A stretch of DNA of 64,000 nt, taken from contig NZ_CP089309.1 of the NCBI RefSeq assembly GCF_021228795.1, positions 4,771,501 through 4,835,500 on the forward strand. The letters run 5' to 3'. Below the pieces are notes generated by a model. The model had not been told where the DNA came from. It made no database searches and worked only from the letters and a program-made list of their open reading frames with translations. The stretch is from Thiocapsa bogorovii. GTDB taxonomy: Bacteria > Pseudomonadota > Gammaproteobacteria > Chromatiales > Chromatiaceae. The position numbers and the translations under genes are program-made. Position 1 is the stretch's first letter. The number at the start of each line of letters is the position of its first letter. Shown here piece by piece: positions 15,178 through 22,163 of this stretch.

Positions 15178-16197
15178 ATGTCTGACATTGTAGATCACAG
15201 CAGAAGGCAGTTTCTGTCGTTCGCGGGCAAGGCCGGCTTAACGACCTTGGTCGCGCAGGCAGTCGGGATCAATCTCGGCGTCGTGGATATCGTTCGCGCA
15301 CAAACCGGAAAACGCGGCGTCGAGCCTTTCCGATTCGCAATCATCAGTGACGCGCATCTCTACAGCATGCCCGATCATAAATTCGACCAACAACTCGCGG
15401 ATGCGGTTGCACAGGTCAATGCGATGACGCCGCTGCCCGACTTTGTTTTGTTCGGCGGTGACGTTGCGCAAAACGGGACGGAAGACCAGTTGGTCAAGGG
15501 TAAGAAGATCCTTTCTGCGCTGAAGATGCCGCTCAAGATCATACCCGGCGAGCACGATTGGTATCTCGATATGGGGGATGCTTGGCGCGGACTTTACGGT
15601 GACGAGACCTGGTCCTTTAATCATAAGGGTGTGCACTTCATCGGTCTCAACTCCATACTTGTGCGCGACTTCTGGACCGAGGCGGGATTGACGCCTCTGG
15701 AACGGATGACCGTGATGGAGATGCTCGAAAGCCCGATCCCCGGTCCATGGGGCGTGCACGAAAAGCAGCTCGAATGGTTGGCCAATGACGTCAAGGACTT
15801 GGCTCCCGATACGCCGGTCGTCGTCTTTACTCACTCCCCGCTTTGGGACTACTACCCGCGCTGGAATTTCCAGACCTCCGACGCGCCCGAGATTCGCGAG
15901 ATCTTGTCGAAGTTCGACAACGTGATGTCTTATCACGGCCACGTCCACCAAACCCTCTACAATCGGATCGGGAATATGAGCTCGGTCGCCGCATTGAGCA
16001 CCTCCTGGCCTTGGCCTTACCCCCCGGTCGAGCTCGCATTCCCCGAGACCCGAATGAATCGGGCCGATCCCTCGATCGCGACCGACGGTATGGGTACGCA
16101 GACCATTGATCTGACCGGATCGTTCGAGGGTCTGGTTCAGTACCAGCCGTTCGAAGATTCGCTGACACCATTCATGAGAGATGGCTTCAAGGTCTAG
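15178..16197 (+). CDS. Tat-exported calcineurin-like metallophosphoesterase
   Basis: A 339-residue periplasmic enzyme. The N terminus has a twin-arginine signal (SRRQFLSFAGKAG, residues 8-20). The dinuclear metal site is complete: Asp58 and His60 (IISDAH), Asp95 (FGGDV), the third motif as GEHD (residues 124-127) with Glu in place of the usual Asn, His219 (FTHSP), and GHVH at 254-257. SoxB of the thiosulfate-oxidising Sox system is also a Tat-exported enzyme of this superfamily, but it is longer and has a 5'-nucleotidase C-terminal domain that is absent here. GAGGTGGAG precedes the ATG. The cytochrome gene follows after 13 bases. Substrate unknown. Confidence 0.85.
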   Translation: MSDIVDHSRRQFLSFAGKAGLTTLVAQAVGINLGVVDIVRAQTGKRGVEPFRFAIISDAHLYSMPDHKFDQQLADAVAQVNAMTPLPDFVLFGGDVAQNGTEDQLVKGKKILSALKMPLKIIPGEHDWYLDMGDAWRGLYGDETWSFNHKGVHFIGLNSILVRDFWTEAGLTPLERMTVMEMLESPIPGPWGVHEKQLEWLANDVKDLAPDTPVVVFTHSPLWDYYPRWNFQTSDAPEIREILSKFDNVMSYHGHVHQTLYNRIGNMSSVAALSTSWPWPYPPVELAFPETRMNRADPSIATDGMGTQTIDLTGSFEGLVQYQPFEDSLTPFMRDGFKV

Positions 16198-16210
16198 GGG
16201 GGTATCGTCA

Positions 16211-16723
16211 ATGAAAAATAGTACGCTGAAGATTGAGCGGGTGATGGCCGTATCGGCCCTCGCCGCGGTTCTCGGTATGAGCACCAGTTGGGCGCGCGCA
16301 CCGTTCACTGATGAAGAGCTGGCGGAGCAGAAGGCCGCCTTGGTCGAGTCGATCGCCCTCGGATATGACCTCTGGCACGGCAGTCGTGCGGATATGACGA
16401 CCAACGGTCTGGCGTGCGGCAATTGTCATCCCGATACGGCTGCGTCCAACCCGCAAACCTTCCCGAAATACATGACGATGTACGGTAAGGTCATCCCCTT
16501 CCGGGAGATGGTGAATTGGTGTATCGAGAATCCGCAAGCCGGCACTCGGCTCGACGTCGACGGTGACGACATGACCGCCATGGAGGCCTACGCCTTCTAT
16601 CTGCATCGCGGAAAAGAGATCACCCCCGGTTTGGCCAGTGAGCAAACCGTGCCGATCGTCGTGGAATACGGAACCGGCTTCGCAAGAACCCCGACCGGCA
16701 TCGGCGTCGATACTAAACCCTGA
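16211..16723 (+). CDS. SoxA-like monoheme cytochrome c
   Basis: A 170-residue exported protein with a Sec-type signal ending near SWARA (residue 30). One heme c site, CGNCH, is at residues 69-73. Downstream lies FPKYMTMYGKVIPFREMVNWC and then GDDMTAMEAYAFYLHRG. The order heme motif, hydrophobic-Asn-x-Cys, then Met-x-Ala-hydrophobic-x-AY-x-RG parallels the catalytic heme domain of SoxA, where the Cys after the Ile-Asn pair ligates heme iron and carries the sulfur chemistry. Cys104 is therefore a candidate axial ligand. It sits between the phosphoesterase and the SoxYZ-like genes. The SoxA likeness is my reading of motif order, not a search result. Confidence 0.78.
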   Translation: MKNSTLKIERVMAVSALAAVLGMSTSWARAPFTDEELAEQKAALVESIALGYDLWHGSRADMTTNGLACGNCHPDTAASNPQTFPKYMTMYGKVIPFREMVNWCIENPQAGTRLDVDGDDMTAMEAYAFYLHRGKEITPGLASEQTVPIVVEYGTGFARTPTGIGVDTKP

Positions 16724-16748
16724 GGCCCTCGACTGGAGCGGTCATTTC

Positions 16749-16778
16749 TCTGCGGCCCCCGACGAGGGGTGCCGCAGA
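16749..16778 (+). terminator. Strong intergenic hairpin after the cytochrome gene
   Basis: TCTGCGGC-CCCC, loop GACGA, then GGGG-T-GCCGCAGA: a 12-bp stem with one bulged T, 25 bases past the cytochrome stop. No U-tract follows, so it may act as a partial terminator or as an mRNA-stability element rather than a full Rho-independent terminator. Confidence 0.5.
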
Positions 16779-16863
16779 CGGATTTCGGTGGGTGTCGACA
16801 CTCCGGCGTCGAGCGCCGTGTGGTTTCGACGTCTAACCTTCGCTGGGGTTGTTGGTCGTGGTG

Positions 16864-17394
16864 ATGAGAGCGGTTTTCCTTCTGATCATGATTCAAGGCG
16901 GGATTCTTGCCCCGGCCTTCGCCGAACAGACCTGTGATACCAGCCGGTATCCTCTGTCGGCGCCGACGGAGCGTTTCAGCGACAACGGCGACGGTACAGT
17001 GACGGATGACGCGGCGCAGCTGATGTGGATGCGGTGTTCCGCAGGGCAAACCTGGTCGGACGAGACCTGTGTCGGGGAGGCTGTCGACTACGACTGGCAG
17101 GGGGCACAGGATCTGGCGGCCGCGACAAACGCGAGTGGTTCGCAGTTCTTCAACGACTGGCGAGTGCCGAGTCTGCGCGACTTGGCGATGATCGCGGAGA
17201 GGCAGTGCGAGAACCCTCGCATCAATCTGGGGATCTTTCCGAATACCCCGGCGCGTCTCTACTGGACCAATTCGTTGCGACCCGGCGAGGAAGACGATGG
17301 TTACGCATACGCCCTGAGCTTCGGACCCGCGGGCGTGCAGCACGTGGCAAAAGGCGAGCGTCACGCGGTGCGCCTTGTTCGCACGGCGCCATGA
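16864..17394 (+). CDS. Secreted DUF1566 (Lcl-like) domain protein
   Basis: A 176-residue protein with a signal peptide ending at PAFAEQ. The mature part shows FSDNGDGTVTDDAAQLMWMRC, where GTV-D--T-L-W is the DUF1566 signature, then a central WQGAQDLAAA, NDWRVPSLRDL and a terminal HAVRLVRTAP. DUF1566 domains are secreted, C-type-lectin-like folds of unclear function. The gene is embedded between the SoxA-like cytochrome and the SoxY-like gene, and its stop overlaps the SoxY-like start (ATGA), tying it to this transcript. Start at ATG 16864; GTG 16858 is possible. Confidence 0.78.
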   Translation: MRAVFLLIMIQGGILAPAFAEQTCDTSRYPLSAPTERFSDNGDGTVTDDAAQLMWMRCSAGQTWSDETCVGEAVDYDWQGAQDLAAATNASGSQFFNDWRVPSLRDLAMIAERQCENPRINLGIFPNTPARLYWTNSLRPGEEDDGYAYALSFGPAGVQHVAKGERHAVRLVRTAP

Positions 17395-17930
17395 GTTCGG
17401 AACACGGGATCACGTGCATGGCCGGCGAACGTGGTTTGCCCGCCGTCGGTGTTCCGGTCCGCGAGGACGAGGCGAATGTCGATCGCTATCGCCGTGGGTT
17501 GGTTGCTGCAGGCGGTATCTTTTGCGCATTGTTGCAGGTTGGCCTGCTCGGAGCCGCTCATGCGCGAAGTCGCGGGCTTCCCGAACTCTTCTCCGCCACG
17601 ACGATCGACGACGCGCTTGACGTCCTGGGCAGCGTCCCGGTCGGCAGTGTCGATGTCGAGCTGACACTGCCCGGTGTCGTCGAGGATGGGGCGGTGGTGC
17701 CCGTGAGGGTGTCGAGCACGCTCGATGGCGTCGAAGAGATCTATGTGCTGGTCGCGACGAACCCTTATCCGGTCGCGGTTCGCTTCGAGATCCTGGAGGG
17801 GACGGAGCCCTTCGTGGCGATCCGTCTGAAGTTAGCGCAAACCGGCGCAGTGTACGCCGTGGTGAGGGCCAAGGGCCGTCTCTACTCCAGGGTTGCGGAG
17901 ACTCGGGTGACGGTCGGCGGATGCGGTTGA
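17391..17930 (+). CDS. SoxY-like sulfur-carrier protein
   Basis: A 179-residue exported protein. An RYRRGLVAAGG segment before a hydrophobic stretch resembles a twin-arginine signal, which SoxY proteins use. The mature domain has DVELTLPGVVEDGAVVPVRV, IYVLVATNPYPVAVRFEIL and ends VTVGGCG. In SoxY the C-terminal GGCGG arm carries the sulfur substrate on its Cys; here the tail is GGCG, one glycine short. It is translationally coupled to the DUF1566 gene and followed by the SoxZ-like gene. A second soxYZ locus probably exists elsewhere in such a genome; this cannot be seen here. Confidence 0.82.
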   Translation: MSSEHGITCMAGERGLPAVGVPVREDEANVDRYRRGLVAAGGIFCALLQVGLLGAAHARSRGLPELFSATTIDDALDVLGSVPVGSVDVELTLPGVVEDGAVVPVRVSSTLDGVEEIYVLVATNPYPVAVRFEILEGTEPFVAIRLKLAQTGAVYAVVRAKGRLYSRVAETRVTVGGCG

Positions 17931-17990
17931 TCAATCGATTTCGCGCGGGAGTTCGGCTTTCCGGGATGTGAACCGTGAGCGAAGCAGAGA

Positions 17991-18305
17991 ATGGCTGATC
18001 CGATACGAATCCGCGCAAAAAGAATCAACGACGGCGTCACCGAGGTTGTTGTCTTGATGCCGCATCCGATGGAGACGGGGTTGGGTTTGGACCCTTCGGG
18101 GCGGGGGCGTGATGCCCACTACATCAGCGACGTCGAGGTGAGTCTCGGCGATCGGGCGGTGCTGCGGGCACGTTTGAGCATTGCGGTTTCGAAAGATCCA
18201 TTGATCTCGTTTCGTTTCAGGGGGGGCGCGGCGGGTGATCGTGTCAATGTGACTTGGACCGACAACCTTGGCGACCAGGGAGCCGGCTCGGCCTTGATTG
18301 TTTAA
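17991..18305 (+). CDS. SoxZ-like sulfur-carrier partner protein
   Basis: A 104-residue protein without a signal peptide, as in SoxZ, which is exported bound to Tat-exported SoxY. The SoxZ hallmark HPMETG is present (LMPHPMETGLGLDPSG), followed by two beta strands, ISFRFRG and VNVTWTDNLGD. It should form a heterodimer with the SoxY-like protein 60 bases upstream. Canonical soxA, soxX, soxB and soxCD are not next to it; a short SoxA-like cytochrome and a metallophosphoesterase stand in their place. Confidence 0.85.
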   Translation: MADPIRIRAKRINDGVTEVVVLMPHPMETGLGLDPSGRGRDAHYISDVEVSLGDRAVLRARLSIAVSKDPLISFRFRGGAAGDRVNVTWTDNLGDQGAGSALIV

Positions 18306-18455: not shown

Positions 18456-18782
18456 ATGAGCGAATGCAATCGCCGGACGTTCATGTTTCAACTTGTTGCG
18501 GGTGGCTCGGCGCTCGCCTTCAGCCGTTTGGGCGTTGCCGACGAGGCGAAGAAGATCCTGACCGAGGACGACGCCTATGCCAAGTCGATGGGTTTCCGCT
18601 TGGATACGACGCAGGTCGACCAGGCCAAATACCCGAAGCACACGGCCGAGCAGAAATGCAGCGAGTGTCAGCTGTTCTCCGGAGAGCCCGGGGAGCCGCT
18701 CGGACCCTGTTCATTTTTCGGAAAGCGTTTGGTTCCGGTTGACGGCTGGTGCCGAAACTTCAAACCGAAAGGCGCAGCCTAG
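18456..18782 (+). CDS. hip: High-potential iron-sulfur protein (HiPIP)
   Basis: A 108-residue periplasmic electron carrier with a Tat signal (NRRTFMFQLVAGG, residues 5-17). Four cysteines for one [4Fe-4S] cluster are at 68, 71, 85 and 99 in the order C-x2-C, C, C (KCSECQLF, GPCSFFG, GWCRNF). Spacing and aromatic residues fit HiPIPs of purple bacteria. In Chromatiaceae HiPIP reduces the tetraheme cytochrome of the photosynthetic reaction centre, and such a cytochrome is encoded by the next gene. Start ATG 18456, with ACGAGGG just upstream. Confidence 0.93.
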   Translation: MSECNRRTFMFQLVAGGSALAFSRLGVADEAKKILTEDDAYAKSMGFRLDTTQVDQAKYPKHTAEQKCSECQLFSGEPGEPLGPCSFFGKRLVPVDGWCRNFKPKGAA

Positions 18783-19013: not shown

Positions 19014-22000
19014 ATGAGGTGTCCCGCAGGCACTTCGGAGCAGGCGCGGGTGCATTTCCTGCACCGGCACATGCAGCGAATCGACCGGCAAAAGCCCGTC
19101 GGCACTTTGCCGTCGTCAACCCACGACGGCAACACTCGGTCACATCGAGAATCGAGCCGGAAAGGCACGACATGGGCGGTGACGGGGCTGATGTTGCTCA
19201 GTTTTCTGAGTCTCGTCGGTTGCGAACGACCCCAGAGCGTGCAGTGGGGCGAGCGTGGCACGTCGATGATTCATATCGATAAACCCGGTCGACTGAAGGC
19301 GGCGGCAGACAACCACGGCGTTCCCGAGCCCGAGCCGCGCGATCCACCGGACCCGGCAATACCCCTCGCGACAGAAGTCAACGAAAACGTCCAGGTGCTC
19401 ACTGACCTGGATGCCCTTGAGTTCGCCCGTCTGATGCAGGCCATGTCGACCTGGATCGCTCCGGAACAGGGCTGCGAATATTGCCACAACACCGAGAATC
19501 TGGCCTCGGACGAAAAATACACGAAGGTGGTGTCGCGGCAGATGCTGCAGATGACCAGGGACATCAACTCCAACTGGAAGTCCCATGTGGCGGCGACGGG
19601 GGTCACCTGTTGGACCTGCCATCGCGGCCAGGCGGTCCCGTCCGAGATCTGGTTTACCAACCCCGGGCCGACCACTCCTTCAGCCGGCATCTCCGGCAAC
19701 AAGGCAGGTCAGAATACGGCAGGCATGCAGGCGATCGGCAACGCATCGCTGCCGTTTGATCCCTTGACCCCCTTTCTGGAAGGCGACGCGCAGGTCGCGG
19801 TTCAAGGAACGACGGCACTGCCGTCGGATAATCGAAACTCGATCAAGAAGGCGGAGTGGACGTACGCCTTGATGATGTACATGTCCAATTCGTTGGGGGT
19901 GAACTGCACCTACTGTCACCAAACCCGAGCGATGGGCGTCTGGGAGCAGAGCACGCCTCAGCGGGTGACTGCATGGCACGGCATTCGGATGGTGCGCGAC
20001 CTCAACGGCGACTACCTCAATCCGCTGAAGACTCTTTACCCACCCGAGCGGCTTGGTCCAACCGGCGATGCGCCCAAGGTCGCCTGCGATACGTGCCACA
20101 AGGGTGCATTCAAGCCGCTTCTCGGCGTCAGCATGCTCGGCGATTATCCGGAGCTGGCCGGATATCGGACAGTGCGGCCGGGCGCGGTGCCGGAGCAAGA
20201 GCAGCCGCAAGAGCTGGCGGCACAGGATTCGGAAGGCGGGCTGATCGTCGTGCTCGAGGACACCTCGGTTGCGGCGCAGGAGCCTGCGGCAGAGGTTGCG
20301 CCGGCGTCCGTCCCCGAGTCGGTTGCGCAGCCTGCCGATGTCGAAGGGACCGCTGAGACGGTCGCGGAATCGGTCGTCGAGGCGGATGCCCCATCCGAGC
20401 CGATCGCTGACGTCGCGGCTCTGCAGGCGGTCGAGTCCTCGGTCGGCGATACGGCAACCGCGCCGGCGGACGTCGAACCTGGCGAGACGGCACCGGCGGC
20501 TTTGGTCCGAGAGCTCGAGTCCGTTGTAGCGCAGCGCGACGCTGCGATCGCGGACGCCGAGGCATCGATCGCCGACGCCGAGGACGAGATCGCCCAGCTC
20601 GATCGACGGCATGCAGCGACGCTGAGCCAAGTCGAACGGCGTCTCAAGGCGGCCGAGGCCCGCTTGCATCAAGAGCGTACGGCCTTGGAGCAGCAGCTCG
20701 CGGTCGTTCGTGGGCAGCGCGACGCCGTCACGACCGATGCGGAGGCGCGGATTGCGCGGCTCGCGAGTGAGTCCGACGAAGAGCGCTCGGCGGCGCTTAA
20801 GGCCGCAGAGGCGCGATTGAGCCAAGAGCGCAGGGCGTTGCAGCAACAGCTTGAGGTGGTTCGTGCCCAGCGTGACGCCGTTTCAGCCGAGGCCGATTTA
20901 CAGGTTGCCGAGCTCACCGGCGAGCAGGCGGCCGCCCTTAGGGCCGCCGGGGCAAGGCTCGATCAGGAGCGCACAGCTCTGCAACAACAGCTCGCCGTGG
21001 TTCGCGCTCAGCGCGATGCCGTCGCGGCCGAGGCCGAGGTACAGATCGCCAAGCTGGCCGAAGACCAAGCCGCGGCGCTGCGGGCCGCCGGGGCGAGGCT
21101 CGATCAGGAGAGTACCGCTCTGCAGCAGCAGCTTGCCGTGGTCCGCGGCCAGCGCGATGCCGTCGCGGCCGAGGCCGAGATGCGGATCGCCGAGCTCACG
21201 GAAGATCAGGCCGCGGCGTTGCGCGCCGCCGGGGCGAGGCTCGATCAGGAGACGACCGCGCTGGAGCAACAGCTTGCGGTGGTTCGCGCCCAGCGCGATG
21301 CCGTTGCCGCCGAGGCCGAGACGCAGATTGCCGCGTTGGTGGACGCGCACGCAAAGGCGCTGCGGGCGGCGGGGGCGAGGCTCGATCAGGAGAGCACGGC
21401 GCTACGGCAACAGTTGGCCGTGGTCCGCGCCCAGCGCGATGCCGTCGCGGCCGAGGCCGAGTTGCAGATCGCGGCGTTGGTCGACGCGCACGCAAAGGCA
21501 TTGCGGGCGGCTGGGGCGAGGCTCGACCAGGAGCGCCTCGCCCTGCAGCAACAGCTCGACGTGGTCCGCGGGCAGCGCGATGCCGCCCTGGACGACACCG
21601 AATCCGAGTCTCGAATCGCTGCGTTGACCGAGGAGATGGATGCCTTGCGGTTAAAGCTTGCCGAGGCCGACGCCGTCGCCGCGGACCTGCGTGCGCAGAT
21701 GCAGGCGGCAACGGCCGAGCATGCGCGAGAGCTGGCCGAAGCCGAGGGGTCGGTCGCGCGGATACGGACGCTGTACGAGGGCGCGGCACAGGTCGGCGGA
21801 CGGATCACCCCGGAGGGTATCTTGGTCAATCTCGGCGGGGAGGAGCTGCGGTTCCCGAGCGGCAGTGCCGTCCTGCCGGCTGGGGCGCTCCCGACGCTCG
21901 ACCGGATCGCCGAGATGCTTGCGTCGAGGCCCGAGCTGCAGGCGAAGATTGCCGGGCATACCGATAGCGTCGGCAATCCGGAGATCAATCAGGCCCTGTC

Positions 22001-22163
22001 TCGGCAGCGAGCGGAATCGGTCATGCAGGCATTGGTCGATCGCGGGGTCGATCCCGGCCGGCTCAGCACCGAGGGTTACGGTGCCGAGCGGCCGATCGCC
22101 GACAATGCGACGGATCGCGGGCGGCGCGAGAATCGCCGTGTCGAGGTCGTGATGGTCGACTAG
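19014..22163 (+). CDS. PufC-type tetraheme reaction-centre cytochrome fused to a coiled coil and an OmpA domain
   Basis: A 1049-residue chimera. After an unusual 50-residue leader, a lipoprotein-type signal ends at LSLVGC (Cys70). A PufC domain follows (about 75-385) with four heme sites: CEYCH 154-158, CWTCH 199-203, CTYCH 298-302 and CDTCH 358-362. Candidate Met ligands lie in RQMLQMTRDIN and HGIRMVRDLN. Then come an acidic Ala/Val/Pro/Glu linker (385-500), an alanine-rich coiled coil built on 47-residue repeats (545-880), and an OmpA-like peptidoglycan-binding domain (930-1049) with IAGHTDSVGN and ENRRVEVVM. Ordinary PufC is about 350-400 residues and stops after the fourth heme. GGAGG at 19001 supports ATG 19014. 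It probably takes electrons from HiPIP and is tethered to the cell wall. Confidence 0.9.
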   Translation: MRCPAGTSEQARVHFLHRHMQRIDRQKPVGTLPSSTHDGNTRSHRESSRKGTTWAVTGLMLLSFLSLVGCERPQSVQWGERGTSMIHIDKPGRLKAAADNHGVPEPEPRDPPDPAIPLATEVNENVQVLTDLDALEFARLMQAMSTWIAPEQGCEYCHNTENLASDEKYTKVVSRQMLQMTRDINSNWKSHVAATGVTCWTCHRGQAVPSEIWFTNPGPTTPSAGISGNKAGQNTAGMQAIGNASLPFDPLTPFLEGDAQVAVQGTTALPSDNRNSIKKAEWTYALMMYMSNSLGVNCTYCHQTRAMGVWEQSTPQRVTAWHGIRMVRDLNGDYLNPLKTLYPPERLGPTGDAPKVACDTCHKGAFKPLLGVSMLGDYPELAGYRTVRPGAVPEQEQPQELAAQDSEGGLIVVLEDTSVAAQEPAAEVAPASVPESVAQPADVEGTAETVAESVVEADAPSEPIADVAALQAVESSVGDTATAPADVEPGETAPAALVRELESVVAQRDAAIADAEASIADAEDEIAQLDRRHAATLSQVERRLKAAEARLHQERTALEQQLAVVRGQRDAVTTDAEARIARLASESDEERSAALKAAEARLSQERRALQQQLEVVRAQRDAVSAEADLQVAELTGEQAAALRAAGARLDQERTALQQQLAVVRAQRDAVAAEAEVQIAKLAEDQAAALRAAGARLDQESTALQQQLAVVRGQRDAVAAEAEMRIAELTEDQAAALRAAGARLDQETTALEQQLAVVRAQRDAVAAEAETQIAALVDAHAKALRAAGARLDQESTALRQQLAVVRAQRDAVAAEAELQIAALVDAHAKALRAAGARLDQERLALQQQLDVVRGQRDAALDDTESESRIAALTEEMDALRLKLAEADAVAADLRAQMQAATAEHARELAEAEGSVARIRTLYEGAAQVGGRITPEGILVNLGGEELRFPSGSAVLPAGALPTLDRIAEMLASRPELQAKIAGHTDSVGNPEINQALSRQRAESVMQALVDRGVDPGRLSTEGYGAERPIADNATDRGRRENRRVEVVMVD
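20646..21644 (+). repeat. In-frame tandem repeats of 141 bp coding for a coiled coil
   Basis: Repeat units begin at 20646, 20799, 20940, 21081, 21222, 21363 and 21504. The first step is 153 bp and the rest are exactly 141 bp (47 residues). Each unit reads close to RAAGARLDQERTALQQQLAV followed by VRAQRDAVAAEAE, with variable ends. Near-identity at the DNA level points to recent expansion by unequal crossing-over. The repeat number may vary between strains. Confidence 0.9.

Follow-up and report, generated by a model that had tools for sequence, protein, structure and literature searches.

Why do SoxY- and SoxZ-like carriers stand beside a phosphoesterase and a single-heme cytochrome at a locus of Thiocapsa bogorovii, and what might such a set of genes do? 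The locus lies in a stretch of 64,000 nucleotides (contig NZ_CP089309.1, positions 4,771,501 to 4,835,500; hereafter the window, in whose coordinates features are given), in which an initial annotation had described five consecutive plus-strand genes at 15178-18305 as a possible, undescribed Sox-like module centred on SoxYZ. The five open reading frames are present, Pfam confirms the family named for each of them, and soxX and soxB have, as had been implied, no match among the genes of the module; for the SoxX family this holds over seven gene products (Pfam and NCBIfam, Pfam only for PufC). The centre of the module has nevertheless to be moved, since we show from gene order that the metallophosphoesterase (MPE) and the cytochrome (CYT) behave as a near-obligate gene pair, which in phototrophs is joined by a HiPIP, a dedicated second PufC and often a dedicated SoxYZ. 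That these genes form a conserved functional module is almost certain. The reading that we favour, to which we give a probability of about 0.42, is that of a periplasmic lithotrophic electron-donating module, which in phototrophs would act via its own HiPIP and PufC on the reaction centre, with SoxYZ as an added carrier.

Conservation of the phosphoesterase-cytochrome pair

MPE (15178..16197, plus strand) is a calcineurin-like metallophosphoesterase of 339 aa, predicted to be exported by the twin-arginine (Tat) pathway (Pfam Metallophos, E 4.3e-14), and is followed by CYT (16211..16723, plus strand), a monoheme cytochrome c consisting of one SoxA/TsdA-type domain (Pfam SoxA-TsdA_cyt-c, PF21342, E 2.2e-09), and by LCL (16864..17394, plus strand), an Lcl_C/DUF1566 protein with a signal-peptide-like N-terminus (PF07603, E 5e-25). 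Among 210 genomes of the order searched with CYT at E<=1e-5, 26 gave matches and 15 of these, window included, carry MPE-CYT-LCL, a recurrence far beyond chance. Eight of the 11 members of the genus are found among the 15, the other three being without a match. SoxY accompanies the trio in 12 of the 15 genomes, SoxYZ not being at the locus in G113, G118 and G055, and HiPIP and PufC follow in 14, the contig of the fifteenth (G155) stopping inside SoxY. MPE is the best-conserved part, with 84-97% identity to the MPE of the window. A distant second type occurs in nine further genomes and in four of the 15; in stretches that show both genes, MPE is about 40% and CYT 31-41% identical. A MauG/CCP-like diheme gene lies upstream in eight of its stretches, and in four, two of which break off within MPE or directly before it, a cbb3-type oxidase (CcoN and a fused CcoO-P) lies downstream; G038 is covered without its wider surroundings. 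Two of the 26 genomes hold weak cytochrome matches without MPE.

A broader scan, restricted to one genome per species, returned at least 545 MPE relatives, of which the best 80 were kept as named loci; these therefore lean to the closest relatives, and some are cut short. Their MPE is 51-97% identical to that of the window, and CYT is the next gene in 78 of the 80, the two misses being contigs that end 27 and 66 bp past MPE. LCL comes directly after CYT or one gene on, that is two or three places from MPE, in 59 of the 80. Thirty named loci consist of MPE, CYT and LCL, 18 carry SoxYZ and HiPIP, 10 carry HiPIP without SoxYZ, and the rest fall into smaller groups. The hosts of the pair comprise Gallionella, gammaproteobacteria, photosynthetic betaproteobacteria and Aquificota, and the loci from Betaproteobacteria, Gammaproteobacteria and Aquificota rule out a module confined to Chromatiaceae or to one strain. 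Among the Aquificota, 14 named loci have a MauG-like gene, 12 of them together with a CarboxypepD_reg-domain gene (CUPM); in one of the 14, CYT is cut off. Within the phylum the family is rare, being found at E<=1e-40 in four of 398 evenly sampled genomes, window included; the other three show MauG-MPE-CYT, CUPM-MPE-CYT-CcoN-CcoOP, and a distant MPE without CYT in the stretch fetched.

A few loci deserve separate mention. By eye, pmoCAB-like genes lie upstream of MauG-MPE-CYT in L215 (1357-9660), suggesting a methanotroph host. The metagenome-assembled genomes (MAGs) behind L092 and L094 bear the titles Klebsiella and Bordetella, which are probably wrong, as both loci group with photosynthetic betaproteobacteria. 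The MPE reading frame of L136 (5132-6153) is apparently in two pieces, perhaps through an assembly error.

A HiPIP and a second PufC in the same block

The five-gene extent first proposed was too short, two genes of the same conserved block having been overlooked downstream: a HiPIP with a Tat-like signal (18456..18782, plus strand; PF01355, E 2.5e-18), one of two HiPIP matches in the T. bogorovii genome, and a second PufC fused to an OmpA domain (19014..22163, plus strand; PF02276, E 6.5e-134; PF00691, E 2.6e-21). This PufC has a lipobox-like start, four CXXCH motifs (aa 154, 199, 298 and 358) and a long repetitive coiled-coil-like stretch between its tetraheme cytochrome and the OmpA domain; a periplasm-spanning electron conduit is conceivable for such a protein. 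The OmpA tail is found in eight of nine Chromatiaceae module PufC and in none of 15 full-length betaproteobacterial ones from the named loci. The genome has two PufC matches, the other at genome position 1947210. No puf genes are found at the module locus, and the module PufC falls outside the clade of the copies that adjoin pufLM. In a tree of 44 PufC domains, 25 module copies, from Chromatiaceae and betaproteobacteria together, are split from 19 others with support of 100/100; 18 of these 19, those from hosts other than T. bogorovii, were checked for their setting, and all of them adjoin reaction-centre genes. Three of the 25 module copies stand upstream rather than downstream of MPE. The tree omitted a partial sequence (L126), a second L073 copy that lies beside pufLM and was entered as L196, and the puf copy of G230, which is in fragments. 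These separate clades rule out that the second PufC came to lie beside the pair by chance.

Gene content was counted in the host genomes of 50 of the 80 loci, which amount to 49 genomes as one genome has two; single absences are weak, because most hosts are drafts or MAGs whose completeness is not given. Of the 49 genomes, 19 encode a reaction-centre gene, and all 19 phototroph hosts have at least two PufC matches, one copy of G230 being in fragments. HiPIP stands at 19 of the 20 loci whose genome encodes a reaction centre vs none of the 30 whose genome does not, and the sole locus departing from this pattern (L105) is the second locus in the genome of L106. That genome, the comamonad MAG G235, carries MPE-CYT-LCL twice, and at one of these loci HiPIP and SoxYZ are missing. 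Elsewhere the pair has other neighbours: it lies upstream of cbb3-type genes in L054, L056 and L214 (Pfam on L056 only), and a MauG-like gene precedes it in the eight Chromatiales stretches, in Aquificota and in Ca. Tenderia. Because the pair is portable and the adjoining sink varies with the host, CYT most likely delivers electrons, and delivery to the reaction centre in the phototrophs is, in our judgement, likely.

RuBisCO is encoded in 33 of the 49 hosts, including all 23 non-phototrophic proteobacteria and all seven Chromatiaceae, a distribution that suits lithotrophy; none of the seven Aquificota hosts has it, and members of this phylum fix carbon by other means. Divergent LysR genes of OxyR-like type accompany the pair in Gallionellaceae, where all six complete copies have both redox cysteines, and in a few gammaproteobacteria, where both are present in two of the three in which the motif could be aligned, the positions being those of the OxyR cysteines of Escherichia coli. 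OxyR is the top NCBIfam match for the three such proteins scanned, always under its cut-off. A LysR nearer to CbbR accompanies 13 of the 28 loci with HiPIP, each of the 13 from betaproteobacteria (two scanned, the rest judged by similarity).

The SoxYZ paralogues are optional

SoxY (17391..17930, plus strand; PF13501, E 1.4e-25) ends in ...VTVGGCG, with a penultimate cysteine, and SoxZ (17991..18305, plus strand; PF08770, E 4.4e-27) carries the HPMETG motif and no evident signal peptide; both motifs, the single CXXCH of CYT and the Tat-like start of MPE can be read in the sequence as first described. SoxY scores 113.3 against SoxY_true, under the cut-off of 125, which just one of five relatives scanned attains (L097, 125.6), and SoxZ scores 94.4 against SoxZ_true, over the cut-off of 76. 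The penultimate cysteine, in place of GGCGG, was found in every module SoxY read, 26 copies with 19 different sequences once a truncated copy is set aside. In a tree of 58 SoxY sequences, from which eight fetched sequences longer than 240 aa, the truncated L048 copy and identical duplicates were omitted, the 19 distinct module copies of Chromatiaceae and betaproteobacteria form a single clade (100/98) apart from the canonical ones, so that the module has, as had been supposed, SoxYZ paralogues of its own. Four betaproteobacterial SoxY, encoded divergently and upstream of MPE, form a separate clade (98/90) and end in GGCGG.

SoxYZ is not at the locus in 10 of the 28 HiPIP-bearing named loci, a few of which are cut short, and among the hosts 35 of 49 have SoxY and 14 have no match. 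This rules out SoxYZ as a defining part of the module, and a SoxYZ-centred, Sox-like reading of it is not supported. SoxB was found at E<=1e-60 in 28 of the 49 hosts (26 over the cut-off), among them all seven Chromatiaceae, as well as in the T. bogorovii genome, at genome position 5449953, away from the module; DsrA exceeds its cut-off in 17. In eleven hosts, three of them Gallionellaceae, neither SoxY, SoxB (E<=1e-60) nor DsrA was matched, incomplete genomes being a possible cause; sulfur is therefore not an obvious common substrate, and with SoxYZ optional the module is not a rearranged Sox system. Nor are the SoxYZ-like genes always accompanied by a normal soxAXB: in G235 (2.6 Mb, possibly incomplete) the module SoxY is the only SoxY match and SoxB has none at E<=1e-60.

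Sequence and fold of the two core proteins

MPE begins with a Tat-like N-terminus (...SRRQFL) and shows the putative metal-ligand motifs D58-x-H60, D95, G-E125-H126-D127, H219 and G-H255-x-H257, of which D58, H60, D95, E125, H126, H219, H255 and H257 are unvarying across 37 sequences. A glutamate stands at the asparagine position of GpdQ (GNHD in the alignment) in all 106 MPE read; Asn is the usual metal ligand in phosphoesterases other than GpdQ as well. The residue counts, which cover 106 MPE and 107 CYT, include nine genomes entered twice and the CYT of L065, which is not beside MPE. Foldseek places GpdQ nearest to the MPE model, and a scan of NCBIfam at E<=1 gave no SoxB match, which together rule out a SoxB in disguise. 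The initial annotation suggested that the role of SoxB passes to a different phosphoesterase; soxB is indeed missing from the locus, and MPE is much more like GpdQ and Rv0805 than like SoxB. SoxB is not among the 50 rows of a re-ranked Foldseek list, which proves nothing, as the re-ranking covers Foldseek's own list. Since confidence in the model is moderate (pLDDT, the predicted local distance difference test, 73.5), active-site geometry is not argued from it.

By eye, a distant GEHD-type MPE (29% identical) in L213 (6126-8861) is followed by cupredoxin-like, extracytoplasmic function (ECF)-sigma-like and zinc-finger anti-sigma-like genes, with no CYT. As this distant, cupredoxin-linked protein also has Glu for Asn, the combination of a GEHD phosphoesterase with a small electron carrier as its neighbour may be more general, this being the one case.

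CYT has the heme site CGNCHP and a conserved N-W-C motif (C104); all 107 sequences read have one CXXCH and 105 have NWC. Against the NCBIfam SoxA profile it scores 36 bits, where the cut-off is 110, and its relatives in L042 and L080 score 40.2 and 49.6. A profile of 36 relatives matches SoxA (1e-18) and TsdA (8.1e-10) in the PDB, and C104 aligns with a cysteine of the SoxA and TsdA domains, which in TsdA we take to be the active-site heme ligand. The CYT model (pLDDT 83) is nearest in fold to a TsdA domain (rmsd, root-mean-square deviation, 1.9; 28% identity), so that sequence and fold both place it closest to TsdA and SoxA.

Earlier reports and the surrounding window

In the tables published for T. 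bogorovii BBS, LT988_21280 and 21285 appear as a third SoxY and SoxZ, and LT988_21295 as a second PufC (PMC10892978). Judged from gene order, these are presumably the module SoxY, SoxZ and PufC. The thiosulfate section and the passages available from that paper do not treat the module genes as a cluster, and give SoxB, SoxX, SoxA, SoxY and SoxZ as present and TsdA as missing (PMC10892978). In the passages of PMC6620896, a metallophosphoesterase is named in the legend of an arsenic-gene figure; no phosphoesterase occurs in the passages of PMC10734462 and PMC3420878, and PMC12442390 contains none of five terms sought in it. Open PubMed Central (PMC) full texts, as far as their passages go, hold no recognisable description of the module, subscription journals being mostly outside this coverage. 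In the same open texts, no metallophosphoesterase appears among the matches listed on HiPIP, reaction centre and cytochrome c, no paper joins three of phosphoesterase, SoxA, thiosulfate and DUF1566, and no phrase for a second pufC was found. Within the open literature searched, the module is thus undescribed, as the initial annotation had proposed, and its order is kept outside one strain and outside Chromatiaceae. In a scan of the window, promoter-like sites numbered one against 1.8 expected and terminator-like sites six against 5.3; its 64 kb contain no tRNA.

Proposed function and alternatives

It is tempting to hypothesize that CYT, through the cysteine it shares with SoxA and TsdA, would oxidise a reduced inorganic sulfur compound (thiosulfate, sulfane sulfur or a related oxyanion), with sulfur becoming covalently bound to its own cysteine or to that of SoxY, and that MPE, with its dimetal-hydrolase fold and Glu for the usual metal-ligand Asn, would cleave this adduct as SoxB does in Sox. 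Electrons would pass from CYT to HiPIP, to the second PufC and to the reaction centre; in hosts that have no reaction centre the electrons of the pair would go to a cbb3 oxidase, to a diheme of the MauG type or to some sink whose gene lies elsewhere. Judged from the heme type of CYT and from the presence of a SoxYZ paralogue, reduced sulfur is the most probable donor, and a hydrolytic step like that of SoxB is the role suggested for MPE; we hold the former tentatively, at slightly less than even odds, and the latter, MPE as an analogue of SoxB, is rather doubtful.

With Sox, the module shares a SoxYZ-type carrier, a SoxA-type heme domain with an aligned cysteine and an enzyme of the phosphoesterase superfamily, but it has neither SoxX nor SoxB, its single-heme CYT is far under the SoxA cut-off, SoxYZ is optional, and HiPIP and PufC are its own. 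TsdA and TsdBA resemble it in that the fold of CYT best matches one TsdA domain, with the cysteine aligned; however, CYT has a single heme in a single domain where TsdA has two of each, and a phosphoesterase for a partner. MPE has the fold of the class III phosphodiesterases GpdQ and Rv0805, from which it differs by its predicted Tat export, its Glu for the metal-ligand Asn and its genetic tie to a cytochrome. The module PufC shares with PufC the CytoC_RC domain with four hemes. In PioABC phototrophic iron oxidation a HiPIP likewise passes the electrons of an oxidation in the periplasm on towards the reaction centre, but no decaheme or porin gene is found among the seven module genes, and a second PufC and SoxYZ come in addition.

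Several observations weigh against the favoured reading. T. bogorovii has canonical Sox besides the module; MPE is closer to GpdQ than to SoxB, which is found at Foldseek rank 24 with 14% identity; the distant-type locus L053 (Chromatiales) has MPE-CYT alone, with neither diheme nor oxidase; the 30 named loci of non-phototrophs made up of MPE, CYT and LCL have alongside them none of the sink genes sought; nine of 12 photosynthetic betaproteobacterial hosts are without RuBisCO, three having it; in several non-phototrophs the OxyR-type regulators next to the pair suggest peroxide as well; and the eleven hosts with no Sox or Dsr match speak against a sulfur donor, or for a donor outside Sox and Dsr.

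Those eleven hosts, which include Gallionellaceae and Ca. Tenderia and all encode RuBisCO, are an argument for the same electron-donating module working on a non-sulfur donor, such as Fe(II), arsenite, phosphite or another oxyanion at the dimetal site, with SoxYZ recruited later for another purpose. The Gallionella and Tenderia lineages oxidise iron or draw on cathodes, and HiPIP with a reaction-centre cytochrome recalls PioC of photoferrotrophy. Yet CYT is of the SoxA/TsdA kind with its cysteine conserved, and SoxYZ is found next to the pair in two arrangements, one within the operon and the other, in a distinct set of betaproteobacteria, divergent; we regard this reading as unlikely. A role in redox protection or peroxide disposal, in which electrons of the pair would go to peroxidase-like dihemes, an oxidase or the photosynthetic chain against oxidative or sulfane-sulfur stress, would account for the OxyR-like LysR with both redox cysteines beside the pair in six Gallionellaceae loci, for the MauG/CCP-type dihemes upstream of it and, by eye, for the cupredoxin-like and ECF-sigma-like genes beside the distant GEHD phosphoesterase. 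Nonetheless, the LysR of photosynthetic betaproteobacteria is nearer to CbbR, HiPIP and a dedicated second PufC fit an electron donor better, and OxyR can also sense sulfane sulfur, so that this role appears improbable.

The strict pairing and the Glu in place of a GpdQ-like Asn would also agree with MPE being a maturation or processing factor for CYT, acting on its heme, metal or cysteine state with no substrate turnover, although the remaining presumed metal ligands do not vary among the 37 sequences and the identity of MPE across the named loci seems to exceed what such a factor needs; we find this quite improbable. Ordinary duplicated thiosulfate Sox genes were already disfavoured: a SoxZ over its cut-off and a host with canonical Sox are what one would expect of them, but SoxX and SoxB are not at the locus, the SoxA profile score is far under the cut-off and the MPE-CYT core is also found where the host has no match to SoxY or SoxB, which makes them very improbable. 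A bolder formulation of the lithotrophic electron-donating module, which we consider unlikely though less so than the alternatives just weighed, would see in it an undescribed lithotrophic enzyme class, a GEHD dimetal phosphoesterase-fold protein and a dedicated one-electron carrier acting as a redox or redox-coupled hydrolytic couple, with HiPIP and a private PufC, cbb3 or MauG-like dihemes as sinks and, in purple bacteria, a private reaction-centre entry apart from the puf-operon cytochrome and Sox.

Significance

The linked MPE-CYT genes across distant bacteria suggest an undescribed route for electrons from a reduced, probably sulfur, compound. If the favoured reading is true, purple sulfur bacteria and photosynthetic betaproteobacteria would have in common a private point of entry for electrons into the reaction centre, with a reaction-centre cytochrome of its own, and the same enzyme pair would serve chemolithotrophs such as Gallionella and Aquificota. 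It would constitute a new donor pathway for anoxygenic photosynthesis and explain why these purple bacteria have two PufC genes, and the MPE-CYT genes would serve as a marker of a lithotrophic trait so far unrecognised, one that can be tested in a cultured strain.

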